Assembly (NCBI RefSeq): GCF_041381155.1
Contig: NC_091134.1
Location: forward strand, 60,543,467 to 60,607,466
Reading direction: 5' to 3'
Origin: Argopecten irradians
Taxonomy: Eukaryota; Mollusca; Bivalvia; Pectinida; Pectinidae
Length of the DNA stretch: 64,000 bases
Numbering within the stretch: position 1 is the first letter of the stretch; each line of letters begins with the position of its first letter. Positions 16,601 through 61,000 of the stretch are shown piece by piece. A model generated the notes under the pieces. That model had not been told where the DNA came from and did no database searches. It saw only the letters and a program-made list of their open reading frames with translations. A program made the position numbers and the translations under genes.

Positions 16601-18503
16601 AATTTGCCATATCTTTCCTTTTGATATATCTATATAATCCTTCCTAACGATAATAACGCTGTCCGGTATAATGTCCACAATAACAATAGCAATTACACCA
16701 AGTTGATTTGAATTATTAATTACAGGATACGAACAAACAACATGTCTATCACAAGGTATCCCGGTGACGTCTCCCGGTATAAAATGCTGTCTCATAAGAA
16801 AGAGCACGGTAATCCAGACAGGTTTGTATTCTATTGTTGATGTTCTGATAAACACTTCAGTAATGTGGCTCGAATAACGATAATAACAATTAAATCTTTC
16901 AGAAACATTGGTGTGAATGACAGTTTTGTGTTATATTACATGATGTTATATTACATTATTTTTATATTCCCAACATCAGCACTAGGTATTGTTCTATTAT
17001 TCTAAAGGAAAACCATTGTAATTTATCTGTTCTGCTGGGAAGAGACATGTTTTATCAGTCTTGATAAAACTTAATTTTCAATGAATCCTACTGAAAGCAA
17101 AACTTGAGTCTGTAAATTTCTTATGTTTAAAGAATAATGAGGACAACAAGACGAAAATAATCCATACCACATAACTAGTTCCTTTCCGTATTCCGTATTT
17201 ATGTATTACTGCACTAGTATGTCACTTATTTTACGTATCGCTTGTTACCGAAGATCAAACCAGTTTTACTTACTGCTTTTTAGCACTGTAATGCCAGAAA
17301 CGTGTCCTTGGTTGTTTCAGATTTCATTTATTGCAAGGATCGAAAAAGAGATGGCAGAAGGACGGCTTAAACAGTCTGAAGTACTCCCGTGTAAAGCTTG
17401 AACTACGGAAGTTATACACATACTTATTAGTTGATGTAGACGAGGTTTACATAATGAGTAACGGAGAATTCAACAGAAGTCACCACAAGCAACATCAACA
17501 CCAGCTACAACAACAGTTCCAGGAACAAAACATCGACCAACGTCATATAGCCAAAATACAGCAAGATATACAGAAGGGATTGCAGTTTGAACAACAGAAA
17601 CAAAGAATAGAACAACGAGAAAAACAAAAACAACAATCACAACAAAAACAGCAGGATATGCCGCAAAGCGGTAAACAGGGACAACAGCAGGCGAACCAAT
17701 TAAATGCGCGCCTAAATCAGCACGTACAGCAAAATTTACACGAAAACCAAGTAATAAAACAAACTAATATACAGACGAAACAACAGGTATTACAACCAGG
17801 TGGTATACCAGTTCATTTACTAGATCCACAAAACCAAGTTATCACAAATCTGCATATGAGTCAACAGCAAAACCCAAATCTTCAATTGAAGCAAAACTTA
17901 CAAGAAGACCAACTTAATAAAAATATACCACAGAACAAAGTAAATCAAAATCTACAGCAGAGCCAGCAAGCTCTGCAAAATATGCAACATAATCAACAAG
18001 TTCCGCAGAATATACAAAACCTGCACAATAATCCAATTCAACAAAATTTACAACATAATCAACAAGTTCAGCACAATGTACAACAAATTCAACAAAATCA
18101 ACAAAATATTAAACAAAGTCAACAGATTCAGCAAAATGTACAACAAATTCAACAAAATCAACAAAATATTAAACAAAGTCAACAGATTCAGCAAAATGTA
18201 CAACAAAGTCAACAGATTCAACAAGATATACAACAAAATAAACAAGTTCAGCAAAATGTACAACAAAATCAACTAGTTCAGCAAAATGTACAACAAAGTC
18301 AACAAATACAGCAAAATATACAAGAAAATAAACAACCCCAGCAAAATACACAACAGAAGGTTCAGCTTCCGCAAAATCAGCAGCAGCATAAAATAGACCT
18401 AGATGAAAAACACAAAATATTACAAATGGCACAAGCACAATCGAATGCCGGTGGTGTTATAAAACTGCCAAACCTATTAAAGCACCCAGATGTACATGTA
18501 TAA
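10653..18503 (+). CDS. B4GALT: beta-1,4-galactosyltransferase with a glutamine-rich C-terminal tail
   Basis: Golgi enzyme of family GT7, expected to transfer galactose (or GalNAc in some invertebrate members) from UDP-sugar to GlcNAc. Six exons in consistent phase: 10653-10920, 11552-11784, 11899-12086, 13252-13374, 16726-16821, 17321-18503; 696 residues. Residues 21-37 form a type II signal anchor after a short basic N-terminus. The catalytic domain carries [31 protein letters not shown], the metal-binding DVD (199-201) and FGWGGEDDD (259-267), ending with DGLNSLKYS. The start is the first ATG before the anchor. The oddity is the last exon: it continues without a stop past the usual end (about residue 356) into about 310 residues dominated by Gln and Asn, with a 60-bp unit duplicated at 18081-18200. 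AATAAA follows at 19117. Which B4GALT paralogue this is cannot be decided. Confidence 0.93.
12467..13211. mobile_element. 745-bp inverted-repeat DNA transposon (MITE) in galactosyltransferase intron 3
   Basis: Both ends carry a terminal inverted repeat of about 40 bases starting CAATGGGGACAAC, with two or three mismatches, and including ACGTCACCGGAAGTGATATC. A perfect 5-base direct repeat AATGT flanks it (12462-12466 and 13212-13216), which fits a target-site duplication. The interior repeats the word TGTGACCGATATC and has no reading frame. It is a non-autonomous element; superfamily undetermined. Confidence 0.85.
14667..14778. repeat. 112-bp near-perfect palindrome in galactosyltransferase intron 4
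   Basis: The left arm (14667-14719) and right arm (14724-14778) pair over 52 bases, broken only by a few unpaired bases near the tip; the loop is GTTA inside GCGC-flanked stems. It is probably the hairpin end of a foldback element whose other limit I could not fix. An extruded cruciform or a double-stranded RNA stem in the pre-mRNA is possible. Confidence 0.85.
15821..15857. repeat. perfect 17-bp-arm hairpin
   Basis: TTACAGTAATTGTAAAT is followed by ATC and its exact reverse complement. It lies in intron 4 of the galactosyltransferase and is likely a small transposon relic. Confidence 0.7.
16451..16498 (+). repeat. poly-T followed by TTTTTGCA repeats
   Basis: A homopolymer T run followed by three short repeats of TTTTTGCAT in intron 4. 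Simple low-complexity DNA. Confidence 0.8.
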
Positions 18504-36062: not shown

Positions 36063-39000
36063 ATGGCAGAGTTGAAAAAGGTTGCTTGTGATCACATTGA
36101 TGATTTGACAGTTGATCTTGGATCTCTAAGCGATGACATTTGGAACCATCCTGAATTAGGATACAAAGAATACTATGCACATGATGCCATTTCAAACTTC
36201 CTCGAGAAACGAGGATTTGAAGTAGAACGAAAATACAAACTCGAGACCAGTTTTTGTGCCAGGTTTGGACATAATCAACCAAACAGCAATAATCTGCCTC
36301 ATGTAGCGGTGTTGTGTGAATACGACGCCCTCCCGGGGATCGGGCACGCATGTGGGCACAACTTGATAGCTGAAGTGGGCGTGGCAACAGGTCTGGCCAT
36401 CAAACAAGCATTGCAATCAGCTGACAGAACATTAGGCAAGGTAAACACTGAACATGCAGGGCATACACATCTACATTGTACATCATAACCAAACAGCACA
36501 TAACGATTACAAAGTTAATTTTAGAAATGATCACATACAATTTAAAAAAAACCAACATACAATATGTCTAGTCCTATAACGTTGACAAGGTCATTCTAAT
36601 AGAAACATTCATGCATGCAGATATATTTACATTGAATATTAATCCAACATCAAATTTGCGTCAGATGAATTGATTTACAGGGACATGACTTAATGTCTTC
36701 CCAATCCATGATCCTCAAGATATTTATCACATACTACAATACTGAGATGTAAATGTTTAAGTCCTTGTGACAAGATGACTATGATATATAAAAGCTTAAA
36801 AGTGTACTATATTTAACCAAACATTCATTGTTCAGGACGCCAACAATTAGGAAATCGGAGACAAGGCCTTGGCTTATTTAGTTTTGATATGTACTGATAT
36901 GTATGAACGACTGAAAATTAAAAAATGAACTACGGAGGGTTTGAGATCCTATATAATTGCATTTTACTATACATGTACATTTAGTTGACAACTTGCTTGG
37001 TATCCCAGCTGAGAAGGGTCTGTGATTCTGTGTAATGTATTATAATGTATATTTAGTTGACAGTGTTTGGTACCCCGGCTGATGAGGGTCTGTGATTCTG
37101 TGTAATGTATTATAATGTATATTTAGTTGACAGTGTTTGGTACCCCGGCTGATGAGGGTCTGTGATTCTGTGTAATGTATTATAATGTATATTTAGTTGA
37201 CAGTGTTTGGTACCCCGGCTGATGAGGGTCTGTGATTCTGTGTAATGTATTATAATGTATATTTAGTTGACAGTGTTTGGTACCCCGGCTGATGAGGGTC
37301 TGTGATTCTGTGTAATGTATTATAATGTTATGTATATTTAGTTGACAGTGTTTGGTACCCCGGCTGATGGGGGTCTGTGATTCTGTGTAATGTATTATAA
37401 TGTATATTTAGTTGACAGTGTTTGGTATCCTGCTGAAGAGGGTCTGTGATTCTGTGTAATGTATTATAATGTATGTTTAGTTGACAGTGTTTGGTACCCC
37501 GGCTGATGAGGGTCTGTGATTCTGTGTAATGTATTATAATGTATATTTAGTTGACAGTGTTTGGTACCCCGGCTGATGAGGGTCTGTGATTCTGTGTAAT
37601 GTATTATAATGTATATTTAGTTGACAGTGTTTGGTACCCCGGCTGATGGGGGTCTGTGATTCTGTGTAATGTATTATAATGTATATTTAGTTGACAGTGT
37701 TTGGTACCCCGGCTGATGGGGGTCTGTGATTCTGTGTAATGTATTATAATGTATATTTAGTTGACAGTGTTTGGTACCCCGGCTGATGGGGGTCTGTGAT
37801 TCTGTGTTATGTATTATAATGTATATTTAGTTGACAGTGTTTGGTACCCCGGCTGATGGGGGTCTATGATTCTGTGTTATGTATTATAATGTATATTTAG
37901 TTGACAGTGTTTGGTACCCCGGCTGATGGGGGTCTATGATTCTGTGTTATGTATTATAATGTATATTTAGTTGACAGTGTTTGGTACCCCGGCTGATGGG
38001 GGTCTGTGATTCTGTGTTATGTATTATAATGTATATTTAGTTGACAGTGTTTGGTACCCCGGCTGATGGGGGTCTGTGATTCTGTGTAATGTATTATAAT
38101 GTATATTTAGTTGACAGTGTTTGGTACCCCGGCTGATGGGGGTCTGTGATTCTGTGTAATGTATTATAATGTATATTTAGTTGACAGTGTTTGGTACCCC
38201 GGCTGATGGGGGTCTGTGATTCTGTGTATGTATTATAATGTATATTTAGTTGACAGTGTTTGGTACCCCGGCTGATGGGGGTCTGTGATTCTGTGTAATG
38301 TATTATAATGTATATTTAGTTGACAGTGTTTGGTACCCCGGCTGATGGGGGTCTGTGATTCTGTGTAATGTATTATAATGTATATTTAGTTGACAGTGTT
38401 TGGTACCCCGGCTGATGGGGGTCTGTGATTCTGTGTAATGTATTATAATGTATATTTAGTTGACAGTGTTTGGTACCCCGGCTGATGGGGGTCTGTGATT
38501 CTGTGTAATGTATTATAATGTATATTTAGTTGACAGTGTTTGGTACCCCGGCTGATGGGGGTCTGTGATTCTGTGTTATGTATTATAATGTATATTTAGT
38601 TGACAGTGTTTGGTACCCCGGCTGATGGGGGTCTGTGATTCTGTGTAATGTATTATAATGTATATTTAGTTGACAGTGTTTGGTACCCCGGCTGATGGGG
38701 GTCTGTGATTCTGTGTTATGTATTATAATGTATATTTAGTTGACAGTGTTTGGTACCCCGGCTGATGGGGGTCTGTGATTCTGTGTAATGTATTATAATG
38801 TATATTTAGTTGACAGTGTTTGGTACCCCGGCTGATGGGGGTCTGTGATTCTGTGTAATGTATTATAATGTATATTTAGTTGACAGTGTTTGGTACCCCG
38901 GCTGATGGGGGTCTGTGATTCTGTGTAATGTATTATAATGTATATTTAGTTGACAGTGTTTGGTACCCCGGCTGATGGGGGTCTGTGATTCTGTGTAATG

Positions 39001-42000
39001 TATTATAATGTATATTTAGTTGACAGTGTTTGGTACCCCGGCTGATGGGGGTCTGTGATTCTGTGTAATGTATTATAATGTATATTTAGTTGACAGTGTT
39101 TGGTACCCCGGCTGATGAGGGTCTGTGATTCTTCTGTAATGTAAATTTGTTAGTGTTTGGTACCGGCTGATGGGGTCTGATCTGTATATTTAATGTATAT
39201 TTAGTTGACAGTGTTTGGTACCCCGGCTGATGGGGGTCTGTGATTCTGTGTAATGTATTATAATGTATATTTAGTTGACAGTGTTTGGTACCCCGGCTGA
39301 TGGGGGTCTGTGATTCTGTGTAATGTATTATAATGTATATTTAGTTGACAGTGTTTGGTACCCCGGCTGATGGGTCTGTGTGATTCTGTGTAATGTATTA
39401 TAATGTATATTTAGTTGACAGTGTTTGGTACCCCGGCTGATGGGGGTCTGTGATTCTGTGTTATGTATTATAATGTATATTTAGTTGACAGTGTTTGGTA
39501 CCCCGGCTGATGGGGGTCTGTGATTCTGTGTTATGTATTATAATGTATATTTAGTTGACAGTGTTTGGTACCCCGGCTGATGGGGGTCTGTGATTCTGTG
39601 TATGTATTATAATGTATATTTAGTTGACAGTGTTTGGTACCCCGGCTGATGGGGGTCTGTGATTCTGTGTAATGTATTATAATGTATATTTAGTTGACAG
39701 TGTTTGGTACCCCGGCTGATGGGGGTCTGTGATTCTGTGTAATGTATTATAATGTATATTTAGTTGACAGTGTTTGGTACCCCGGCTGATGGGGGTCTGT
39801 GATTCTGTGTAATGTATTATAATGTATATTTAGTTGACAGTGTTTGGTACCCCGGCTGATGGGGGTCTGTGATTCTGTGTAATGTATTTATAATGTATAT
39901 TTAGTTGACAGTGTTTGGTACCCCGGCTGATGGGGGTCTGTGATTCTGTGTAATGTATTATAATGTATATTTAGTTGACAGTGTTTGGTACCCCGGCTGA
40001 TGGGGGTCTGTGATTCTGTGTAATGTATTATAATGTATATTTAGTTGACAGTGTTTGGTACCCCGGCTGATGGGGGTCTGTGATTCTGTGTAATGTATTA
40101 TAATGTATATTTAGTTGACAGTGTTTGGTACCCCGGCTGATGGGGGTCTGTGATTCTGTGTAATGTATTATAATGTATATTTAGTTGACAGTGTTTGGTA
40201 CCCCGGCTGATGGGGGTCTGTGATTCTGTGTTATGTATTATAATGTATATTTAGTTGACAGTGTTTGGTACCCCGGCTGATGGGGGTCTGTGATTCTGTG
40301 TAATGTATTATAATGTATATTTAGTTGACAGTGTTTGGTACCCCCGGCTGATGGGGGTCTGTGATTCTGTGTAATGTATTATAATGTATATTTAGTTGAC
40401 AGTGTTTGGTACCCCGGCTGATGGGGTCTGTGATTCTGTGTAATGTATTATAATGTATATTTAGTTGACAGTGTTTGGTACCCCGGCTGATGGGGGTCTG
40501 TGATTCTGTGTAATGTATTATAATGTATATTTAGTTGACAGTGTTTGGTACCCCGGCTGATGGGGTCTGTGATTCTGTGTAATGTATTATAATGTATATT
40601 TAGTTGACAGTGTTTGGTACCCCGGCTGATGGGGGTCTGTGATTCTGTGTAATGTATTATAATGTATATTTAGTTGACAGTGTTTGGTACCCCGGCTGAT
40701 GGGGGTCTGTGATTCTGTGTAATGTATTATAATGTATATTTAGTTGACAGTGTTTGGTACCCCGGCTGATGGGGGTCTGTGATTCTGTGTAATGTATTAT
40801 AATGTATATTTAGTTGACAGTGTTTGGTACCCCGGCTGATGGGGGTCTGTGATTCTGTGTAATGTATTATAATGTATATTTAGTTGACAGTGTTTGGTAC
40901 CCCGGCTGATGGGGGTCTGTGATTCTGTGTAATGTATTATAATGTATATTTAGTTGACAGTGTTTGGTACCCCGGCTGATGAGGGTCTGTGATTCTGTGT
41001 AATGTATTATAATGTATATTTAGTTGACAGTGTTTGGTACCCCGGCTGATGGGGGTCTGTGATTCTGTGTAATGTATTATAATGTATATTTAGTTGACAG
41101 TGTTTGGTACCCCGGCTGATGGGGGTCTGTGATTCTGTGTAATGTATTATAATGTATATTTAGTTGACAGTGTTTGGTACCCCGGCTGATGGGGGTCTGT
41201 GATTCTGTGTAATGTATTATAATGTATATTTAGTTGACAGTGTTTGGTACCCCGGCTGATGAGGGTCTGTGATTCTGTGTAATGTATTATAATGTATATT
41301 TAGTTGACAGTGCTTGGTACCCTGCTGATGAGGGTCTGTGATTCTGTGTAATGTATTATAATGTATATTTAGTTGACAGTGTTTGGTACCCCGGCTGATG
41401 AGGGTCTGTGATTCTGTGTAGTGTATTATGATTTTTATTTAGTTGACAGTGTTTGGTACCCCGGCTGATGGGGGTCTGTGATTCTGTGTAATGTATTATA
41501 ATGTATATTTAGTTGACAGTGTTTGGTACCCGGCTGATGAGGGTCTGTGATTCTGTGTAATGTATTATAATGTATATTTAGTTGACAGTGTTTGGTACCC
41601 CGGCTGATGGGGGTCTGTGATTCTGTGTATGTATTATAATGTATATTTAGTTGACAGTGTTTGGTACCCCGGCTGATGAGGGTCTGTGATTCTGTGTAAT
41701 GTATTATAATGTATATTTAGTTGACAGTGTTTGGTACCCCGGCTGATGGGGGTCTGTGATTCTGTGTAATGTATTATAATGTATATTTAGTTGACAGTGT
41801 TTGGTACCCCGGCTGATGGGGGTCTGTGATTCTGTGTAATGTGTATATTTGTTGACAGTGTTGGTACCCGGCTGATGGTCTGTGATATGTATTAGTTGAC
41901 AGTGTTTGGTACCCCGGCTGATGAGGGTCTGTGATTCTGTGTATGTATTATAATGTATATTTAGTTGACAGTGTTTGGTACCCCGGCTGATGGGGGTCTG

Positions 42001-45000
42001 TGATTCTGTGTAATGTATTATAATGTATATTTAGTTGACAGTGTTTGGTACCCCGGCTGATGGGGGTCTGTGATTCTGTGTTATGTATTATAATGTATGT
42101 TTAGTTGACAGTGTTTGGTACCCCGGCTGATGAGTGTCTGTGATTCTGTGTAATGTATTATAATGTATATTTAGTTGACAGTGCTTGGTACCCTGCTGAT
42201 GGGGGTCTGTGATTCTGTGTAATGTATTATAATGTATATTTAGTTGACAGTGTTTGGTACCCCGGCTGATGGGGGTCTGTGATTCTGTGTAATGTATTAT
42301 AATGTATATTTAGTTGACAGTGTTTGGTACCCCGGCTGATGGGGGTCTGTGATTCTGTGTAATGTATTATAATGTATATTTAGTTGACAGTGTTTGGTAC
42401 CCCGGCTGATGAGTGTCTGTGATTCTGTGTAGTGTATTATGATTTTTATTTAGTTGACAGTGCTTGGTACCCCGGCTGATGGGGGTCTGTGATTCTGTGT
42501 TATGTATTATAATGTATGTTTAGTTGACAGTGTTTGGTACCCCGGCTGATGAGTGTCTGTGATTCTGTGTAGTGTATTATGATTTTTATTTAGTTGACAG
42601 TGCTTGGTACCCTGCTGAGGAGGGTCTGTGATTCTGTGTAATGTATTATAATGTATATTTAGTTGACAGTGTTTGGTACCCCGGCTGATGAGTGTCTGTG
42701 ATTCTGTGTAGTGTATTATGATTTTTATTTAGTTGACAGTGCTTGGTACCCCGGCTGATGGGGGTCTGTGATTCTGTGTATGTATTATAATGTATGTTTA
42801 GTTGACAGGTTTGGTACCCCGGCTGATGAGTGTCTGTGATTCTGTGTAGTGTATTATGATTTTTATTTAGTTGACAGTGCTTGGTACCCTGCTGAGGAGG
42901 GTCTGTGATTCTGTGTAATGTATTATAATGTATATTTAGTTGACAGTGTTTGGTACACCGGCTAATGAGGGTCTGTGATTCTGTGTAGTGTATTATGATT
43001 TTTATTTAGTTGACAGTGCTTGGTACCCCAGCTGATGAGGGTCTGTGATTCTGTGTAGTGTATTATGATTTTTATTTAGTTGACAGTGCTTGGTACCCCA
43101 GCTGATGAGGGTCTGTGATTCTGTGTAGTGTATTATGATTTTTATTTAGTTGACAGTGCTTGGTACCCCAGCTGAGGAGGGTCTGTGTGGTAAACATGAT
43201 CTGATCAAAAGTGGAGCATTTGAAGGAATAGATGCTGCAATGATGGCTCATCCATCCCAGTTTACCTTGTCCAAACCAAACTATGTCTCCATGACTCCGT
43301 AAGTAATAATTCTTAAACTAACACAGGGTTTATGCTGGATGCTCCTTATGTAATTTGAATGGACTTGGAAAAAGAGTGGGTTTCTTTTCATTTTCTATGC
43401 TTAAAGCTAGAGGACATGGGAATGGCATCAACACAAAACCTGTAAAATCATATTACATTGTATATGCAAAGTTTAAGGATGCTCCACCGCCGACAGAGCA
43501 TAAATGATATTCATCATTTGAATAATAATTGGTGTTTAATCATGTATATATATGCCTAATTAAAGATGCTCCACCGCTGACAAATGGTAATATTTCACTA
43601 TCAAAAACAGGAGCAGACGATTTAGTATTTTTCTACAGTTACAAAAGTTACATACTTAACACCATTTCCACCATTGAAAAGTTTGAGCTTCTAATTTTAC
43701 TTCAAGTTAAAAATATGAAAAATAATTAATTGCATCCCGAAAAAATTCCGTGGTACTATATCTTATATGGAATGAATTACTGAATGCGCATGCACCAAAG
43801 GCGATATCAATTATTTTATGTTATTTTTTGTGTTAATTAGGCATATATATATACACGATTAAACACCAATTATTGTTCAAATGATGAATATCATTTATGC
43901 TCTGTCGGCGGTGGAGCAGCTTTAACACAAAAGATAACATGAAATAATTTATTTCGCTGTTGGTGCATGCGCAATCATTACTTCATTCCATATATAATTC
44001 AGTGCCACGGAATTTTTTCTGGATGCAACTAAATATTTTTCGTGTATTTATCTTGAAGTAAAATTAGAAGCTCAAACTTTTCAATGGTGGTAATGGTGTA
44101 AAGTAAGTAACTTTTGTAACTGAAGAAAAATACTTAATCGTCTGCTCCTGTTTTTGATAGTGAAAAAATACCATTTGTCAGTGGTGGAGCATTTTTAAAT
44201 AAACGTATCTTGAAATGTCTATTGATGCAGTACTGGAATATATCTGGTTGCAGATAAACAAGATTGCCAAAAAGCATTTTGATTTACCTGCATACAGTAA
44301 AACACAGTTATTACAAACTGCTTGGGACCAATGGAATCAATTCATTTTAAGTATAGTTTGTTATACACATATTACAGACATCTAGAACCAGTATGTTATA
44401 ACTATGAGTTTGTTGTAAGCGTGTTCATTATAAACATTTTTTATTGTAAGCGTGTTTGTTATAAACATGTTTTATTGTATGTATAGTTTGTTATACACAT
44501 ATTACAGACATCTAGAACCACTATGTTATAACTATGAGTTTGTTGTAAGCGTGTTCATTATAAACATGTTTTATTGTATGTATAGTTTGTTATACACATA
44601 TTACAGACATCTAGAACTACTATGTTATAACTATGAGTTTGTTGTAAGCGTGTTCATTATAAACATGTTTTATTGTATGTATAGTTTGTTATACACACAT
44701 TGAATATTTATATTAACACACATCTAGAACTACTATGTTATAACTATGAGTTTGTTGTAAGCGTGTTTGTTATAAACATGTTTTATTGTATGTATAGTTT
44801 GTTATACACATATTACAGACATCTAGAACTACTATGTTATAACTATGAGTTTGTTTATAAACATGTTTTATTGTATGTATAGTTTGTTATACACATATTA
44901 CAGACATCTAGAACTACTATGTTATAACTATGAGTTTGTTGTAAGCGTGTTTGTTATAAACATGTTTTATTGTATGTATAGTTTGTTATACACATATTAC

Positions 45001-48000
45001 AGACATCTAGAACTACTATGTTATAACTATGAGTTTGTTGTAAGCGTGTTTGTTATAAACATGTTTTATTGTATGTATAGTTTGTTATACACATATTACA
45101 GACATCTAGAACCACTATGTTATAACTATGAGTTTGTTGTAAGCGTGTTGGTTATAAACATGTTTTATTGTATGTATAGTTTGTTATATACACATATTAC
45201 AGACATCTAGAACTACTATGTTATAACTATGAGTTTGTTGTAAGCTGTTCGTTATAAACATGTTTTATTGTATGTATAGTTTGTTATACACATATTACAG
45301 ACATCTAGAACTACTATGTTATAACTATGAGTTTGTTGTAAGCGTGTTGTTTATAAACATGTTTTATTGTATGTATAGTTTGTTATACACACATCTAGAA
45401 CTACTATGTTATAACTATGAGTTTGTTATAAACATGTTTTATTGTATGTATAGTTTGTTATACACATATTACAGACATCTAGAACTACTATGTTATAACT
45501 ATGAGTTTGTTGTAAGCGTGTTTGTTATAAACATGTTTTATTGTATGTATAGTTTGTTATACACATATTACAGACATCTAGAACTACTATGTTATAACTA
45601 TGAGTTTGTTGTAAGCGTGTTCATTATAAACATGTTTTATTGTATGTATAGTTTGTTATACACATATTACAGACATCTAGAACTACTATGTTATAACTAT
45701 GAGTTTGTTGAGTTTGTTATAAACATGTTTTATTGTATGTATAGTTTGTTATACACATATTACAGACATCTAGAACTACTATGTTATAACTATGAGTTTG
45801 TTGTAAGCGTGTTTGTTATAAACATGTTTTATTGTATGTATAGTTTGTTATACACATATTACAGACATCTAGAACCACTATGTTATAACTATGAGTTTGT
45901 TGTAAGCGTGTTTGTTATAAACATGTTTTATTGTATGTATAGTTTGTTATACACATATTACAGACATCTAGAACTACTATGTTATAACTATGAGTTTGTT
46001 ATTATAAACATGTTTTATTGTATGTATAGTTTGTTATACACAAGTTTACAGACATCTAGAACTACTATGTTATAACTATGAGTTTGTTGTAAGCGTGTTT
46101 GTTATAAACATGTTTTATTGTATGTATAGTTTGTTATACACATATTACAGACATCTAGAACTACTATGTTATAACTATGAGTTTGTTGTAAGCGTGTTTG
46201 TTATAAACATGTTTTATTGTATGTATAGTTTGTTATACACATATTACAGACATCTAGAACTACTATGTTATAACTATGAGTTTGTTGTAAGCGTGTTTGT
46301 TATAAACATGTTTTATTGTTATGTATAGTTTGTTATACACATATTACAGACATCTAGAACCACTATGTTATAACTATGAGTTTGTTGTAAGCGTGTTCAT
46401 TATAAACATGTTTTATTGTATGTATAGTTTGTTATACACATATTACAGACATCTAGAACTACTATGTTATAACTATGAGTCTGTTGTAAGCATGTTCGTT
46501 ATAAACATGTTTTATTGTATGTATAGTTTGTTATACACATATTACAGACATCTAGAAATACTATGTTATAACTATGAGTTTGTTGTAAGCGTGTTTGTTA
46601 TAAACATGTTTTATTGTATGTATAGTTTGTTATACACATATTACAGACATCTAGAACCACTATGTTATAACTATGAGTTTGTTGTAAGCGTGTTCATTAT
46701 AAACATGTTTTATTGTATGTATAGTTTGTTATACACATATTACAGACATCTAGAACTACTATGTTATAACTTTAAGTTTGTTGTAAGCATGTTGGTTATA
46801 AACATGTTTTATTGTATGTATAGTTTGTTATACACATATTACAGACATCTAGAACTACTATGTTATAACTATGAGTCTGTTGTAAGCGTGTTTGTTATAA
46901 ACATGTTTTATTGTATGTATAGTTTGTTATACACATATTACAGACATCTAGAACCACTATGTTATAACTATGAGTTTGTTGTAAGCGTGTTCGTTATAAA
47001 CATGTTTTATTGTATGTATAGTTTGTTATACACATATTACAGACATCAAGAACTACTATATTATAACTTTGAGTTTGTTATAAACATGTTTTATTGTATG
47101 TATAGTTTGTTATACACACATCTAGAACTACTATGTTATAACTATGAGTTTGTTATAAACATGTTTTATTGTATGTATAGTTTGTTATACACACATCTAG
47201 AACTACTATGTTATAACTATGAGTTTGTTGTAAGCATGTTCATTATAAACATGTTTTATTGTATGTATAGTTTGTTATACACATATTACAGACATCTAGA
47301 ACTACTATGTTATAACTATGAGTTTGTTATAAACATGTTTTATTGTATGTATAGTTTGTTATACACATATTACAGACATCTAGAACCACTATGTTATAAC
47401 TATGAGTTTGTTATAAACATGTTTTATTGTATGTATAGTTTGTTATACACACATCTAGAACTACTATGTTATAACTATGAGTTTGTTGTAAGCATGTTCA
47501 TTATAAACATGTTTTATTGTATGTATAGTTTGTTATACACATATTACAGACATCTAGAACTACTATGTTATAACTATGAGTTTGTTATAAACATGTTTTA
47601 TTGTATGTATAGTTTGTTATACACATATTACAGACATCTAGAACTACTATGTTATAACTATGAGTTTGTTATAAACATGTTTTATTGTATGTATAGTTTG
47701 TTATACACATATTACAGACATCTAGAACTACTATGTTATAACTATGAGTTTGTTGTAAGCGTGTTGGTTATAAACATGTTTTATTGTATGTATAGTTTGT
47801 TATACACATATTACAGACATCTAGAACCACTATGTTATAACTATGAGTTTGTTGTAAGCATGTTCATTATAAACATGTTTTATTGTATGTATAGTTTGTT
47901 ATACAAATATCACAGACATCTAGAACTACTATGTTATAACTATGAGTCTGTTGTAAGCATGTTCATTATAAACATGTTTTATTGTATGTATAGTTTGTTA

Positions 48001-51000
48001 TACAAATATCACAGACATCTAGAACTACTATGTTATAACTATGAGTTTGTTGTAAGCATGTTCATTATAAACATGTTTTATTGTATGTATAGTTTGTTAT
48101 ACACATATCACAGACATCTAGAACTACTATGTTATAACTATGAGTTTGTTGTAAGCGTGTTCATTATAAACATGTTTTATTGTATGTATAGTTTGTTATA
48201 CACATATTACAGACATCTAGAACTACTATGTTATAACTATGAGTTTGTTGTAAGCATGTTCATTATAAACATGTTTTATTGTATGTATAGTTTGTTATAC
48301 ACATATTACAGACATCTAGAACCACTATGTTATAACTATGAGTTTGTTGTAAGCGTGTTCATTATAAACATGTTTTATTGTATGTATAGTTTGTTATACA
48401 CATATTACAGACATCTAGAACTACTATGTTATAACTATGAGTTTGTTGTAAGCGTGTTCATTATAAACATGTTTTATTGTATGTATAGTTTGTTATACAC
48501 ATATTACAGACATCTAGAACTACTATGTTATAACTATGAGTTTGTTGTAAGCGTGTTCATTATAAACATGTTTTATTGTATGTATAGTTTGTTATACACA
48601 TATTACAGACATCTAGAACTACTATGTTATAACTATGAGTTTGTTGTAAGCGTGTTTGTTATAAACATGTTTTATTGTATGTATAGTTTGTTATACAAAT
48701 ATCACAGACATCTAGAACCACTATGTTATAACTATGAGTTTGTTGTAAGCGTGTTGGTTATAAACATGTTTTATTGTATGTATAGTTTGTTATACACATA
48801 TTACAGACATCTAGAACTACTATGTTATAACTATGAGTTTGTTATAAACATGTTTTATTGTATGTATAGTTTGTTATACACATATTACAGACATCTAGAA
48901 CTACTATGTTATAACTATGAGTTTGTTATAAACATGTTTTATTGTATGTATAGTTTGTTATACACACATCTAGAACTACTATGTTATAACTATGAGTTTG
49001 TTGTAAGCATGTTCATTATAAACATGTTTTATTGTATGTATAGTTTGTTATACAAATATCACAGACATCTAGAACCACTATGTTATAACTATGAGTTTGT
49101 TGTAAGCATGTTCATTATAAACATGTTTTATTGTATGTATAGTTTGTTATACAAATATCACAGACATCTAGAACCACTATGTTATAACTATGAGTTTGTT
49201 GTAAGCGTGTTTGTTATAAACATGTTTTATTGTATGTATAGTTTGTTATACACATATTACACACATCTAGAACCACTATGTTATAACTATGAGTTTGTTG
49301 TAAGCGTGTTTGTTATAAACATGTTTTATTGTATGTATAGTTTGTTATACACATATTACAGACATCTAGAACCACTATGTTATAACTATGAGTTTGTTGT
49401 AAGCGTGTTTGTTATAAACATGTTTTATTGTATGTATAGTTTGTTATACACATATTACAGACATCTAGAACCACTGTGTTATAACTTTAAGTATGTTGTA
49501 AGCGTGATCGTTATAAACATGTTTTATTGTATGCTATTATGTCCTAGTGTGAAGATAACCTACAGGGGCCAGGCCGCCCACGCCTCCTCGTACCCCTGGG
49601 AGGGCCTCAATGCCCTCGATGCTGCTGTTCTCTGCTACAACAACATTTCCTGTCTACGCCAACAGATGAAGCCAACCTGGCGTGTTCATGGTAATATGTT
49701 CAATCCTTGCTACTTTCCTTTTCTGGCAGAAAATGATAATGGATACATGATCCATATGTTTATTGAAATTTCCTTTTCATTTACTCTATTTTTTTGCCAA
49801 GCTCTGAACCTTTTGTGTTAAGGTTACAATCTACATGGGGCAGTTGCCATGATCACAAATTGGTAGTTTTTCTCTGGATACTGTAGCTTTCTCCACCAGG
49901 CATATCTTTAAATGGTCCATGCTACTAAAAAAACAGTCAAGCAAATGGATGGATGTTATAAATTATGTATCTTTTGTGCTCATATATTATGAGGTACTTC
50001 TGATATCTACAGTGCTAGGAGCAGACAAGAAATAAATAAAATATTGCAAGGGAATGAAATATTATTGCTTTATAATATATATTAATAATATTATATTATT
50101 ATATTTACATTCTGAGTGTTTCGTCACTATATGAATCAACCAACTGACGAAAACAAACCTTTGCCTATGAAAACTCTATGAATACTATGAATACAACGAT
50201 TCTAGTGCATCAATCAGCTGATTACAAACATCACACTAGTTTCATATCAATAAGAAAAATAGTCCCCCACAATATTTTAATGTATAATCTTTAATGTGTT
50301 GTTTTTTGATGTAGAATCAACCAAGGTTTACTGTAATAAGTCAATCAAATCTAATTTTAATTATATTTCTTGTTTATCATTTGTCATTTGCAAAAAAAGG
50401 TTGACTGGAAGGTGGAAGCTTGAAAACATGACTTTGTGGAAAGACTATGTCATCCAGCTGTTTCATTAATCTCGTTTCTCGTCGTATATGAGTGTCATAA
50501 TTTCTAATATAATATAAATAATATGAATAGCAGAAGCTATCTACATATCTTCTGAAGAGCGCTAACGTGCTCAACGTAATATGTAGATAGCTTCTGCTAT
50601 TCATAGTCGTTATGAAAATTAGAAAAATACATTCAATCCCTATGTAATATTTTGTTCCCATGCAATAATATTTCATTATAAAGCAATAATTTTTTCCATG
50701 TCCATCCCAGCCACTGTACGTATCAAAAACAAAGCAAAATGAAAAAAAAAATCCACAAGAACCTGATGTCACCCATATTGAGAAATTGGGAACGACATTA
50801 CTTGAATTGCTGTGCCATAACTTATATCCTGAATTTTGTATTCTACATTCTGTGTAATTTAAACACTACTCAAATTATTGATAGACATAGGTCCCTTGGT
50901 GTCCATTTAGGTAGACACAAGCAGGCTCAGCCTTTCATAAACTTCAATAAGCTGATATACCTACAGGAAATAACAAAATTAAATTCTCATTATTACTGTA

Positions 51001-52260
51001 AATTTACTTTAACTATTGTTTTTGTCTCTAGGAGTAATAAGTAAGGGAGGCCTTCAGCCCAACATCATTCCAGATGAGACTGAACTACAGTATTACCTCC
51101 GAACTCCCACAGAACCCGAACTCAAGGTTCTTATATCAAAGGTCAACAACTGTATCCAGGCTGCTGCCTTAGCAACAGGGTGTGAAGTAGGTGTTTTCAA
51201 AATATTGTAACTTTTCCAACTTATACAGATTGACCATCAGATCCAAAATGAAAAAATAATTATTACAGTATAATATTGCAGTGTAATTTTTGTTATTTTT
51301 AGTCATCTATAACTGAATACTTGGAAATGTCTGATAGCAAGTCTTTTTCCTCATGTATGATCCTGATGCCCAAGGTAACTTTAAAATAAACAAGAGGGGG
51401 AAAAAAACCATTTATCGGAGACTTAACGCCCAAATGAATAGCTTTCTAACCCATCCCCTTTGTCCTAAGAATTATACAATGCAATTTAATTGATTGATTT
51501 CTTATCTGAGGGTGATTTTTTTTATTTCAGACAGAGTATAAATATTCAGAAAAGCACTATTTTTCACTGTTGTCAAATGCTACAATGGCTGCCACTTTTG
51601 AAGAGAATGCTAAGTGTGTAGGAGTAGAGTTTGAACAGAAGGATGAGCTGATCCGGAAGTTTGGAGGATCCACGGATATGGGGAATGTATCCCATGTAGT
51701 TCCTAGTATCCACCCCAAGTTTTACATCGGAACCAAGGCTAGTAACCATTCAAAGCCATTCACACAAGCTGCAGGTACGTATAGACATCAACACAAAAAT
51801 GTAAATTTGTGTCTGAAAAAATGAAATTGATCATGAATATTTATTGTAAAGTTTAATTATTTAACCAAATCATGTTACAACCAAATCAAAATATTTTGAT
51901 TGTAGTTAGACTCTATATAAAAAGTTCAGCTATTACAATCAGGATTAAACAATTACTTTCACCTTGTAGTTGTCAAAATTGTATGAGAAATTAAAACTTG
52001 TGTTCTACAGTGTAAATTTAAAGTTTGCTGTCTGCCCTTTTACAATTTCCTCCTAGGAATCTGTTAATTTATCCAGACATAATTATATTCTTTACAGTCC
52101 TTTTTAACCTCTATGAATTCTAGGTGACCCTCAAGCCCAGCCCTACACACTGGCTATAGCTAAAGGACTCGCAATGACAGCTCTGGACATCTTCACCAAA
52201 CCTGACCTCCTCTCTTCTATAAAGGCTGACTACCAGAAGGCTGTTAGTGAACAAGTGTGA
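36063..52260 (+). CDS. PM20D2: peptidase M20 domain-containing protein 2 (PM20D2-like)
   Basis: Cytosolic M20-family dipeptidase; the vertebrate homologue hydrolyses unusual beta-alanyl and gamma-aminobutyryl dipeptides such as beta-alanyl-lysine. Six exons keep phase: 36063-36440, 43150-43298, 49548-49690, 51032-51186, 51531-51774, 52124-52260; 401 residues (human about 436). Visible motifs are the metal site [16 protein letters not shown] (83-100), the catalytic GTPAEEG (131-137), MAHPSQ (H160), the dimerisation/lid segment beginning [16 protein letters not shown] (from 187) and [30 protein letters not shown] and the alanine-rich C-terminal helix complete the fold. No signal peptide. Introns 1 and 2 exceed 6 kb because of minisatellites; the others are ordinary. 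Candidate poly(A) signals lie at 52900 and 53018. The gene converges with AK9. Confidence 0.96.
36975..43149 (+). repeat. 70-bp minisatellite, about 88 copies, in PM20D2 intron 1
   Basis: Highly homogeneous tandem array. Each unit contains TATATTTAG, then TTGACAGTGTTTGGTACC, CCGGCTGATG(G/A)GGGTCTGTG and an AT-rich linker. The part after TTTAG matches the first 38 bases of PM20D2 exon 2 (from 43,150) with about three differences, so the unit is a splice acceptor plus exon start. Units at 36,975 and in the last 700 bp are the most diverged; the last ones (from about 42,990) carry CTTGGTACCCCAG as the true exon does. Some units are shortened, for example near 39,130 and 41,840-41,900. Confidence 0.97.
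43477..43921. mobile_element. A-family TTAA MITE, interrupted by a B-family MITE
   Basis: TTAA flanks both sides (43473-43476 and 43922-43925). The halves 43,477-43,563 and 43,837-43,921 are near-perfect inverted repeats beginning GGATGCTCCACCGCCGACAG, leaving almost no unique centre. The central TTAA has been used as the insertion site of another element (43,564-43,832). Confidence 0.85.
43564..43832 (+). mobile_element. B-family TTAA MITE, copy 2, nested in the A element
   Basis: A 269-base unit bounded by TTAA at 43560-43563 and 43833-43836. It starts AGATGCTCCACCGCTGAC and ends TTTTTTGTG. It is the reverse complement of 43,926-44,194 (same length) with scattered differences. Confidence 0.85.
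43926..44194 (-). mobile_element. B-family TTAA MITE, copy 3
   Basis: 269 bases bounded by TTAA at 43922-43925, shared with the A element's right border, and at 44195-44198. It aligns with copies at 33,590 and 43,564. It lies in PM20D2 intron 2. Confidence 0.85.
44360..49535 (+). repeat. 99-bp minisatellite, about 54 copies, in PM20D2 intron 2
   Basis: The unit contains ATAAACATGTTTTATTGTAT, GTATAGTTTGTTATACAC, ATATTACAGACATCTAGAA and CTATGTTATAACTATGAG. Common variants lack 15 bases between two GTTTGTT words or 9 bases around ATTACAG, as expected of slippage between short direct repeats. Because 99 is a multiple of three and one frame has no stop, open frames of up to 1,166 codons appear (46,321-49,821), encoding a 33-residue Tyr/Leu-rich repeat. 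I regard this as non-coding intron. The array ends about 13 bases before the acceptor of exon 3. Confidence 0.96.
50522..50605. repeat. hairpin with perfect 26-bp arms in PM20D2 intron 3
   Basis: Arms 50522-50547 and 50580-50605 (TATGAATAGCAGAAGC and onward) are exact reverse complements around a 32-base spacer. Weaker inverted similarity at about 50,035-50,095 and 50,655-50,700 (GCAATAATATTTCATT) suggests the whole 50,030-50,710 stretch is a decayed foldback element. Confidence 0.75.
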
Positions 52261-55029: not shown

Positions 55030-58000
55030 TCATGCCACCCAGGTTGCTGTTGGTTCAATTCCACGGAGTGCAAAGAAAGTTTCTAATTTCATGTCGAAAT
55101 CTCCAGGCCGTTCCGTGGGGTCCCGATATCGTACTGTCATATTGTCTCCCAAGTATTTTATCAGCCTACACGTGTCCTCAAACTGTTTTAGTTTCTGTCT
55201 ATACTTTTTCCTTATGTAATCTGAACTTTTAGGGTTGAAAGCTGAAAAGAAACAAAAAGAAATGAATATCAAAATTTAGATGTGTAATTTATGTTATAAA
55301 GATTTTGAAATTGCAATTCCTGATAATCTAGAAAAATTTGGTTAAAAGAAGCTTAAAGAAAGAACTTGTATCTTTTTATAAAAAAAGAATATTTTTTTGT
55401 GACATAGTGCTGTCAAAGATATATTAAAGCATCAATTGATGGATATCAATATACAAAAAGTCTCTTTAAAGATGCTTCTGTTAAAGATGTTCAAGTTGTC
55501 ATTAGGATTGCACTATCTTTCCTCTAGTTTTAGGTTCTAACAAAACATTCGCTCATAAGGAAGGACTATGAAGGATACCTTTGAGGTGGTAAGCTACGTA
55601 GATCAATGAAGATCTGCTGGGGCTCAAGAAAGGGTATTTAGGTTTAAAGTTTCCAACTGCTGTCATTGCTTTGATGAGCGATGTTGCCACGGTCTGTTCC
55701 ATGTAACCAAGCATTGGTAGGTTAGTGACCGTTAAGCTTTCCTTAGCAGGCGGAAGTTTGTGTGGCAGTTGAAGGTTCCAGTATTTCTCTGGTAATCTGG
55801 AGATGGGAACAATTATTTTTTACCTTAAGTAGGTTGTTGACTTTATTTATACTTTTATTCTGAAATACATCTGGAATAAGAAAACCTGTCTTCACAATTC
55901 AAAGTGCTATAAAATCTAGTAATTACAATAGTAAGTCGTAACTTTAATTGGAACAGAGAAAATGGAGATTATATGAAAATGATCACAAGGTCAGAGATGT
56001 TGGATTTTACAACTTTTTACTTACTTCATAAATTTAAGGAGTTTTTCTTCATTTTCCATGTAGTAGAACTTTTCTCTGTATTCCACAATGAGGTCGGGAT
56101 TGCCAGGAATTATTGCTTCATATCTACGAAAAGAAGACATGATAGATTAATCTATTACACACAAAAGTGAAGCTGTAAACCCTGTGCAATTTTCTTTGCA
56201 TCATATGGAACGTCTCACATTGTATACAAGCAGTTCAAAGTTAATACAGTTTACAGGATATACCTTCCTTTGACATTTTAAGTTTCTAGGTTTGATAACT
56301 TTGCTGGCATGCATTAATACATGTATCAATCATAACATTTATAAAGTTTACATAACAATAAACATGTTCAGCTGTGAACCTCACCTGCACTTGCCATCTA
56401 GGAAAGTGACTGGACAGTAGCCCTTGACCTCTATCTCCTGTGAGGCTTTCACTTCGTCAGGGAATCGTCGAATGGGAAGGAGATCCTTTGCTGGTAGTTT
56501 TCTGGGGGCCAGAGGAGGGACATATTTCTCTGGTTCCTCCAGGAATAGCTTAAGTTCCTCAGCACCAGCCAACTTATAATAATGTCCTAGGAAAAGAGAA
56601 AGGAGATTGTAAGAGTACAAAATTAGCATTAAGTAACACTTAAATTTGCAATTTGATTCTAAAGAACGCTACATGTGTTTACTGTGACCAACATCATGAA
56701 ATAGATTTTTTTACATTTAAACACATTATGTTACTGAGCAAATGAGACATACCTCTGAACTCGGCAGCAAATTCCAGTGTTGAATTTGTGGAACAGTCAA
56801 CGAGTTCCCCTCGGAGGGCGAGACTGACTGGACAGTATTGACCATAGTCTCCCATCCTCTGTAGGAACTCGTTTGGTGTTATACACATGTCCGCAATCGA
56901 CGCAGATTTACCTACAGAGAGAAAGTGATTTCTTTAATTAAATATTTCTAATACATGCCACCATATATCTTTATATAGTTAAGATATTTTCACAAATAAT
57001 TAAAGAAAAGGTTCAGATAATTTTTAACATAAAGGCATAGAAACCTTTCATGAGAAATAGATAAAATTTCTTGACTCACCATCGGACACCCGCTGTAGAT
57101 AGGTCTGTATCTGTGTGACTGACTGACTGGCAATCTCGGAACCCTTATTCCACATCCACCACTTAGAGTTCTCCCCTGGGATTTGGATGAAGTTCATGTG
57201 CTCAGACTTATACCACTGCCTCACGGCAGCTATCTCCTTATTATAGGCGGCCATCTTCACCGCCAGGATCTGAGAGCTGTCGTGTAGGGGTATCGTTCTG
57301 GAATGTCAGCAAAACAATATTATATGTTATGTTCAAGGCTGATAATTATAAGGTAATATCAGCAAAACAATATATTTTATGTTCAAGGCTGATAATTATA
57401 AGGTAATATGACATTTATTTGGAGTTGGTGAACTATATGTTTTTCAAATTATCTATTTTTTCATTACTTGTTCTATAGAAAAAAAAAATCCTCTTTATCA
57501 AATTGTTTCAAATAAATTGTTTATTTTTCATAGCTTAAAATGTAGCATATTTGTAAATATAATAACATGTATAAATAAATGAAAACCAGAGATGTAACAA
57601 CACTTTGTCGGGACCATGTCAGGATCACTTCATGCAAGTTTCAGCCAAATCGCACCGGTAGAACTTGAGAAGAAGTTCAAAATGTGTTTTCAAGATGGTG
57701 GCTGTGGTGGCCATCTTGGATTTCGGATCAATCCGATAAATAACAACACTTTGTCGGGATCATGTCAGGATCATTTCATGCAAGTTTCAGCCAAATCGCA
57801 TCGGTAGAACTTAAAAGGAAGTTCAAAATGTGTTTTCAAGATGGTGGCTGTGGCAACCATCTTGGACTTCAGATTGACTTGAAAAATAACAACACTTTGT
57901 CAGGACCATGTCAGGATCATTTCATGCAGGTTTCAGCCAAATCGCACCGGTAGAACTTGAGAAGAAGTTCAAAATGTGTTTTCAAGATGGCGGCTGTGGC

Positions 58001-61000
58001 AGCCATCTTGGATTTCTGATCGACCCGAAAAATAACAACACTTTGTCGGGACCATGTCAGGATCATTTTATGCAAGTTTCAGCCAAATCGCACCAGAAGA
58101 ACTTGAGAAGAAGTTCAAAATGTGTTTTCAAGATGGTGGCTGTGGCGGCCATCTTGGATTTTGGATCGACCCTAAAAATAACAACACTTTGTCGGGACCA
58201 TGTCAGGATCATTTCATGCAAGTTTCAAACAAATCGCACCAGTAGAACTTGCGAAGAAGTTCAAAATGTGTTTTCAAGATGGAGGCTGTGGTGGCCATCT
58301 TGGATTTCGGATCGACCCGAAAAATAACAACACTTTGTCGGGACCACGTCAGGATCATTTCTTGCAAGTTTCAGCCAAATCGCACCGGTAGAACTTGAGA
58401 AGAAGTTCAAAATGTGTTTTCAAGATGGTGGCTGTGGCGGCCATCTTGGATTTCGGATCAACCCGAAAAATAACAACACTTTGTCGGGACCATGTCAAGA
58501 TCATTTCATGCAAGTTTCAAACAAATCGCACCAGTAGAACTTGAGAAGAAGTTCAAAATGTGTTTTCAAGATGGAGGCTATGGTGGCCATCTTGGATTTC
58601 GGATCGACCCGAAAAATAACAACACTTTGTCGGGACCATGTCAGGATCATTTCTTGCAAGTTTCAGCCAAATCGCACCGGTAGAACTTGAGAAGAAGTTC
58701 AAAATGTGTTTTCAAGATGGCGGCTGTGGAGGCCATCTTGGATTTCGGATCAACCCGAAAAATAACAACACTTTGTCGGGACCATGTCAGGATCATTTCA
58801 TGCAAGTTTCAGCGAAATCGCACCGGTAGAACTTGAGAAGAAGTTCAAAATGTGAAAAGTTAACGCACGGCGCACGGCGGACGACGACGGACGAAACATG
58901 ATGCTATAGGTCATCCTGACCCTTCGGGTCAGATGACCTAAAAATGAAAAGGTAAGTTTTCTAAAACAAATGAACAGTGTTGAGTTAAGCCTTACCTTGT
59001 TGGTGCCATGCGGTCCTTCATGCCCCGTAATAAAACTTCTTTACTATCCAACTCCAGCTCAACAACACGTACAGGGATGATGCTGCGTTCAGTCATCAAA
59101 TCAATCTGTTTCTTGGTTTGGGGGAAACCATCTAGGATATACCTATATAGAAAGTTGATATATTATAAGGAAATCTATTCATCATTCCATGCTATAAGCC
59201 AGTGTCCATTACATTATGTAGGACCAAAGTGATATGAATGCTTCAACATTTGTTATTGAAACCAAGCTTAGGTATTCAGCAGTTATTTGTATTTTCAGGG
59301 CAACTACTTTCATATGCTTGTAAAACATTGTTCATAAGAATTTCATCTAAAAAAAGAGAGAAAAAACCTGCCTGAAGTTGGGTATTACAACTTACCCTCT
59401 TGTTTGACACTTCATGTCCAGGAGACAGACGTCGAGAGCCTGGACAGCCAGTTCCTCTGGAACAGTGTAGCCCTTTAACAGATACTTTAACATTTGTTTG
59501 GCTAGATCTGTCTTAGACTGCTCTGCCAGCACTTTCCTCATAGCCTCCCCGATAGACAGTCGTACCAAACCGTACGATTCAGCAAATCGTGTAGCCACTA
59601 TAATAAATCGTATTCAAAATGTTAAATGAGGCTTAAGGCGTATATCGTTGTTTTATAATTTTCAGTCAAAACCTGACTTCATAATTCATAAGCAGAATTT
59701 TGCATTTTCATTCCAGCATCTTTTAAAAGTTATTTTATTTTCAGACATAAGTAATCCTATAGTCTCAATACATTATCAAAATTATTCAGGATTAATATTA
59801 ACTATTGAGCTTTCATCATTTTGAATCTTACATATATAAATGATTATAATCATAAATCATTCCCAAGATGTGTACTTACATGTGGTTTTGCCAGACTTTG
59901 GTGGGCCAATAATTGCCATTTTGATGGGTACGACAGGTTTGGGTGTAGGCTGAGTGAGGTAAGTCATAGGGTCCTGGATAAAGTCCTCCCGAGCCGACAG
60001 AGATGACAGGAAGAAGATGTGGTTACGGTACAGACATGGATAGGTCGGGTAGCCAGGTCCACTCATAGGCTGGATACAGTCTCCCTCCTTAATCTACACA
60101 AAAAGAAAACCATTTTTAACACCTCAAGTTTTTTGAGGATAAAATAAGCTTTCAGTTTAACCATCTATTTAGGCAATCATCAAATTAGAAGTGTCCAATG
60201 TTTTGACATAAAAAGGTAAAACATACCATAGAATGTCCAGCAATTTCCTGTAAAGGGTTCAAAAACAAGATGATCTCCCCTTAACGAACAATTTTTATGA
60301 CTTATAAAAGGAATTCTCTAATAGCGATCTATTAAGCAAATTTGGTATCAGACAAAGCAATGTCATGAATATTCTACAAACTTATTCTCTCTTCCCTAAT
60401 TAACTTGCTCATATCAAAACACATTTACACTCAATCTGACCTTAACTGGACACCATCGTCCAAATCGACTGGGCTGTTTGTATCCACTCTGTAACATCTT
60501 TTTAGCCAGTTTCTCTCCAAGAGGGTAAACTCTCTCAAACATGCTGTGTCTAAACTGAACATATGGTTTTAACTTCTTTGTCATCAGATAACGAACAATG
60601 TGTGGTTTACGACCTCCATCCAGGTCGAGTCGGGGCACCAGGATCTCCTCTAATGCTTCCTGGAAACAAACAATCAGGTGGATATTGATGATATTCAGAA
60701 TCAGGGCAAATTTCTTATGCAATCTATAATGCTCTGATTATTATTCAAAGAAGTTTACAAAGTCTTAAAATTCTTTTACAAATGATATTGAACACTTAGT
60801 AAAGCAATTTGAAAAAAAAAAATGCAATTATTTCTTGAAAGCTAATAGAATTCCAGAGCCTACCTGTACACCAGCTAGTCTGTTTGTGTCATTGTCATAT
60901 ACTTCATTTAATTCATTCCTAATTCTGTCCTTAGCATCCTCCTCTAATTCATCTTCTTCCTCCTCCTCTTCTTCTTCTTCCTATGAAAACATCAACATTA

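Follow-up and report, generated by a model that had tools for sequence, protein, structure and literature searches.

Minisatellite-like tandem duplications that span an intron-exon boundary have been described in amphioxus, where they are called mirages; they occur in the globin genes BflGb6 and BflGb9 and in Adh3 (PMC3087553). In the parts of that paper on which we draw, BflGb6 carries 6 and 3 units of 150-160 bp on two haplotypes, and the Adh3 mirage units measure 10-72 bp. Adh3 data and RT-PCR of the globins suggest that mirages leave splicing undisturbed, and the authors proposed that introns can be gained from such repeats (PMC3087553, same parts). Excerpts of PMC3902484 add mirages in troponin C and PGBD5 of amphioxus. 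Variable internal tandem repeats at exon-intron boundaries were also reported from human segmental duplications, with alternative splicing via novel introns (PMC2812944, in the portion cited here).

Here we describe an array of this kind in intron 1 of a PM20D2-like gene of a mollusc, Argopecten irradians. The PM20D2 unit, like those of the amphioxus mirages, is minisatellite-like and spans the intron-exon boundary of its host gene, and in both cases the interior is homogenised with the cluster edges left out. Its geometry is that of BflGb6, namely the 3' end of the intron plus the 5' part of exon 2. In contrast to the few long units of the cephalochordate gene, PM20D2 has 88 copies of 70 bp. 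Splicing of the amphioxus mirages was examined by RT-PCR, and the PM20D2 array is described here from genomic sequence. The human boundary repeats, variable tandem arrays as far as the cited portion describes them, likewise lie at exon-intron boundaries of a non-cephalochordate, but they gave novel introns, and no new intron is evident in PM20D2. Another minisatellite that copies a splice site of its host is that of the human gene 6-16 (G1P3, IFI6), which reportedly carries multiple splice donor sites (Turri 1995); there the donor is repeated, and in PM20D2 it is the acceptor.

In the excerpts of open-licence literature that were searched, arrays named mirages were found only in amphioxus, and no mollusc minisatellite spanning such a boundary was found among the matches listed. 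A paper on gastropod haemocyanin introns (PMC7931591) was rejected as a precedent, because the tandem duplications in its cited parts are protein units and minisatellites are not mentioned in them. A sequence-only reading of this DNA had singled out a minisatellite built from the gene's own splice acceptor. The structure is real, but its kind was already known from the amphioxus mirages.

The PM20D2-like gene and its 70-bp array

The window, which is the whole stretch of 64,000 nucleotides analysed, contains a PM20D2-like gene of six exons and five GT-AG introns with an open frame for a 401-residue protein. The best solved relative of this protein is Xaa-Arg dipeptidase (PDB 7yh4, E 2.1e-122). 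The residues encoded at the start of exon 2 align with VLGTPAEE in the chain of Xaa-Arg dipeptidase, and the conserved GTPAEE motif is kept. We take the product of this Xaa-Arg dipeptidase-like gene to be PM20D2, and the two glutamates of GTPAEE in exon 2 are presumably part of the M20 active site. The features of the gene and the array are as follows.

36063..36440, + strand: coding exon 1, PM20D2-like, 126 codons counted from the first ATG, aligned to Xaa-Arg dipeptidase; its final AAG is followed by the donor GTAAAC
36441..43149, + strand: intron 1, 6709 bases, of which 6182 are array
36968..43187, + strand: 70-bp minisatellite, 89.8 copies (TRF); the final 38 bases are exon 2
36985..37056, + strand: most 5' copy, diverged; keeps the exon-like bases CTTGG and CCCAGCTGAG, missing from most interior copies
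37057..42453, + strand: copies 2-78, mostly homogenised A-type with the tract ATGTATATTTAG; a single B-type copy at 41443
39090-39204 and 41791-41895, + strand: degenerate units within copies 2-78
42454..43149, + strand: copies 79-88, B-type mixed with A-type; the B-type tract ATTTTTATTTAG is that of the real site
42454, 42594, 42733, 42871, 43010 and 43080, + strand: starts of the B-type copies among copies 79-88
43150..43298, + strand: real exon 2, 149 bases, donor GTAAGT
49548-49690, 51032-51186, 51531-51774 and 52124-52260, + strand: exons 3-6, frame intact to the stop

The array unit joins the 3' end of intron 1 (TATTTAG) to a copy of the opening 38 bases of exon 2, followed by a short junction. 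Segmentation at the exon-like start gave 89 starts; one of them, at 43150, is that of the real exon 2, and the other 88 are copies. The copies are mostly spaced 70 bases apart and elsewhere 69-75, three units are irregular at 115, 61 and 44 bases, and the acceptor AG is intact in 87 of the 88 upstream copies. The array consensus is identical to the exon 2 start at 34 of 38 positions. Local alignment of the unit to exon 2 scored 30; none of 2000 dinucleotide shuffles exceeded 14, and the other five exons of the gene reached 7-9. These results bear out the earlier claims that the unit is the gene's own acceptor plus the start of exon 2 and that about 88 such copies precede the real acceptor. The gene is intact, and the array lies right at its genuine intron-exon boundary, running straight into exon 2.

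There are 29 unit types among the 88, the commonest of which accounts for 39 units. The interior is mostly uniform, whereas copy 1 and copies 79-88 are deviant, so that the array is homogenised with the edges left out. Such a pattern is in line with slippage or unequal exchange that spared the edges from homogenisation. By eye, a four-unit block is seen twice, in copies 79-82 and 83-86. The similarity of the intron part of the copies increases toward the exon (rho 0.31, p 0.003), but their exon-likeness does not change significantly from one end of the array to the other (rho 0.14, p 0.18).

Origin of the array and its genomic surroundings

The array unit was searched for in the 846-Mb assembly, in which the window's own contig is C1. 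Its 24-base core gave 87 matches genome-wide with up to 3 mismatches, of which 86 lie at the PM20D2 locus, including the real exon; the one off-locus match is on contig C5 and has 3 mismatches. A 1-kb piece of the array matched no locus other than PM20D2 intron 1 among the best candidates scored. A cluster of PM20D2 paralogues lies at 67.67-67.71 Mb of C1, and the GTPAEE-containing exon 2 start also matches these paralogues. In all four paralogous exon 2 starts the homologous codon is immediately preceded by an AG, and none of the arrays found by TRF extends to any of the four paralogous exon 2 copies (the nearest ends about 500 bases before one). This indicates that the intron predates the array. 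The conserved GTPAEE motif and the paralogous exon 2 copies, which no array reaches, further indicate that exon 2 is the older form, from which the array was derived. An intron newly gained by tandem duplication was considered and rejected, because the intron position is common to the four paralogous exon 2 copies. Inspection of the edge copies by eye suggests that the original duplication probably took in about 25 bases of the intron and 38 of the exon, plus a short filler. The tract difference between A-type copies and the real site may be due to Ts gained at that site or to Ts lost from the copies. The tract of the most 5' copy is A-like, which may simply reflect that it belongs to the A lineage.

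Minisatellites, defined by a period of at least 10 and a TRF score of at least 100, cover 8446 of 50,000 bases (16.9%) in ten 5-kb samples taken one per contig from C1-C10. They cover 13,283 of 64,000 bases in the window, 18,438 of 50,000 in the paralogue region and 11,345 of 16,198 in the PM20D2 gene span. Other large arrays lie between the paralogue exons, with a 37-bp unit present 146 times and a 44-bp unit present about 191 times in two adjoining rows. Minisatellite arrays are ordinary in this genome; the unusual part is the exon boundary inside the intron 1 array.

Several other features were observed. A second array, with a 99-bp unit, fills most of intron 2 (44440-49533), leaving 14 bases between its end and exon 3. 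In the frame of exon 3 this array is open for more than 1000 codons; among shuffles of the unit, a given frame is open in 5% and any frame in 20%. Relatives of its unit are found on many contigs. Intron 2 also contains inverted repeats at 43473-44217, with 296-nt arms of 87% and 81-nt arms of 95% complementarity, which are perhaps a palindromic mobile element. A 146-bp tandem repeat of 8.6 copies lies at 57595-58854 of the window, and a Q/N-rich open frame of 403 residues at 17292-18503 contains 30/90-bp repeats and has no Pfam match at E 0.001. On contig C15 (L050), an egg-laying-hormone-like prohormone scored 26.5 bits (cut-off 20) and has two similar copies, LSLNGDL and LSINGAL. This family is molluscan, which makes the prohormone a hint of a mollusc genome; the COX1 and FMRFamide families had no match, although the latter result is of little weight.

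Stops, donors and acceptor strength in the copies

Reading into any of the 88 copies leads to a stop within 7-16 codons, and after exactly 12 codons in 76 of them. The commonest 12-residue decoy peptide arises from 54 copies and another 12-residue peptide from 12. The sequence-only reading had expected about 12 in-frame residues and then a stop from each decoy, and GTAATG in most units; the first agrees with these counts and the second with GTAATG lying downstream of the AG in 63 of 88 copies. As every copy leads to a premature stop, the last acceptor would be needed to make the enzyme. Pseudo-exons, which the same reading thought conceivable, look unlikely, because GTAATG is by consensus presumably a poor donor and no GTRAGT donor occurs in 36968-43149. 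The array was also considered as a minisatellite supplying multiple splice donors, and this was rejected: it has no GTRAGT, and GTAATG in those 63 copies. Purine-rich motifs of the GAGGAG, GAGAAG or GAAGAG type are marks of exonic enhancers. Exon 2 contains GAGGAG, and one of the three motifs is present in 4 of the 88 copies. As a lead only, such a motif may be an enhancer mark that distinguishes the real exon 2.

The pyrimidine tract was measured over the 16 positions from -20 to -5, together with its longest run. The real exon 2 site has 10 pyrimidines of 16 and a longest run of 5, and the gene's other four acceptors have 10-12 of 16 and runs of 4-8. The copies had been regarded as equal decoys, but 81 of the 88 have a poorer tract than the real site (8-9 pyrimidines, runs of 2-3). 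Only seven match it, numbers 64, 79, 81, 83, 85, 87 and 88, and all but the first of these fall within the final 700 bases. The 12 paralogue acceptors include one whose longest run is 3 and another with 8 pyrimidines of 16, and therefore the tract measures overlap between copies and real acceptors. Copies 87 and 88 cannot be told from the real site over a stretch that begins at least 45 bases upstream and extends to +26, so the choice among these must depend on downstream sequence. Downstream of the real site lie exon sequence beyond +26 and a donor 149 bases away.

A position weight matrix was built from 16 acceptors, four of the gene and 12 of its paralogues. The real exon 2 site was excluded from training, and one paralogue exon 5 start with an unclear AG was left out. 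The real site scored -0.09, and 8 of 88 copies scored at least that (the seven B-type copies tie with it, and one A-type copy scored 0.86). The 81 A-type copies average -4.0, and 75 of them fall below every leave-one-out training score. However, the 148 other intronic AGs average 0.40 and 55% of them score at least as high as the real site; a matrix that cannot tell real acceptors from the remaining AGs of introns is weak evidence and descriptive. RNA folding was rejected as the reason why the copies are ignored, because the real tract is less accessible (0.179 unpaired) than the copy mean (0.420); the gene's other four acceptors have tracts 0.41-0.71 unpaired. In the zone from -40 to -16 the real site is more open (0.492) than the copies (0.361), yet B-type copies reach 0.41-0.50. 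Compared with shuffles, one interior unit shows better folding (z -2.2), unlike five other stretches (z -0.5 to 0.7).

Explanations for the array

We consider it likely that the array is a mirage that has grown to 88 copies and serves no function of its own, being tolerated by a genome rich in minisatellites. A tandem duplication would have straddled the boundary of intron 1 and exon 2 of PM20D2, and the duplicated boundary would then have expanded to 88 copies via slippage or unequal exchange. Splicing would take the last acceptor, which is closest to the exon 2 donor, by exon definition, with a 6.7-kb intron on one side of exon 2 and a 6.2-kb intron on the other; the poorer pyrimidine tracts of most copies would also favour it. 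If the seven copies whose tract equals that of the real site were used occasionally, the resulting isoforms would be 70, 140 or more bases longer and would carry a premature stop, and nonsense-mediated decay would probably clear them. According to the cited parts of PMC9225289, exon definition favours the sites nearest across the exon, and for 3' sites it lowers the upstream preference. The latter counts against the exon-definition account. Nothing local separates copies 87 and 88 from the real site, which also counts against our preferred explanation. Further points against it are the low matrix score of the real site, the paralogue acceptors with tract values as low as those of the copies, the lack of a significant trend in exon-likeness, and the predicted folding, in which the real tract is not exposed. 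Judged from the DNA itself, the array is still most likely a tolerated by-product, with the last acceptor picked by exon definition.

A regulatory role would make the array a splice sink, in which the copies near the exon compete with the real site and array length or the number of B-type copies sets the amount of productive PM20D2 mRNA. The seven copies sharing the tract of the real site and the early stops in all 88 are consistent with it, whereas the poorer tracts of most copies and the commonness of minisatellites in the genome argue against it, and we regard it as unlikely. It is similarly doubtful that the array is a splicing brake tunable by copy number, whose length would vary between individuals and set PM20D2 output. 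The array might instead be raw material for intron or exon gain, with short pseudo-exons of about 45 bases running from the AG of a copy to its GTAATG. That motif lies downstream of the AG in most copies, and the amphioxus authors proposed intron gain for such repeats in the cited parts of PMC3087553. But the array has no GTRAGT, and the intron position is old and common to the four paralogous exon 2 copies, which makes this highly improbable.

Tandem arrays are hard to assemble, and the copy number could be inflated or the array misplaced. However, the window has no Ns, no exact repeat within the array exceeds 457 bp, and 29 unit types occur among the 88, which argues against a simple assembly error; the array also runs into exon 2 at a single locus. 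An artefact is therefore very unlikely. The neighbouring array at 44440-49533 has relatives on many contigs, and the intron 1 array could likewise be a transposon-borne or dispersed satellite that resembles exon 2 fortuitously. We give this almost no credence, as the two genome searches gave the intron 1 unit no other locus except the core match with 3 mismatches, and the match of the unit to exon 2 is far above chance.

With 88 upstream acceptor copies, seven of them with the real tract, and a single exon, the locus is a natural test of splice-site choice. A mirage in a mollusc would suggest that minisatellite-rich genomes generally give rise to arrays of this sort.
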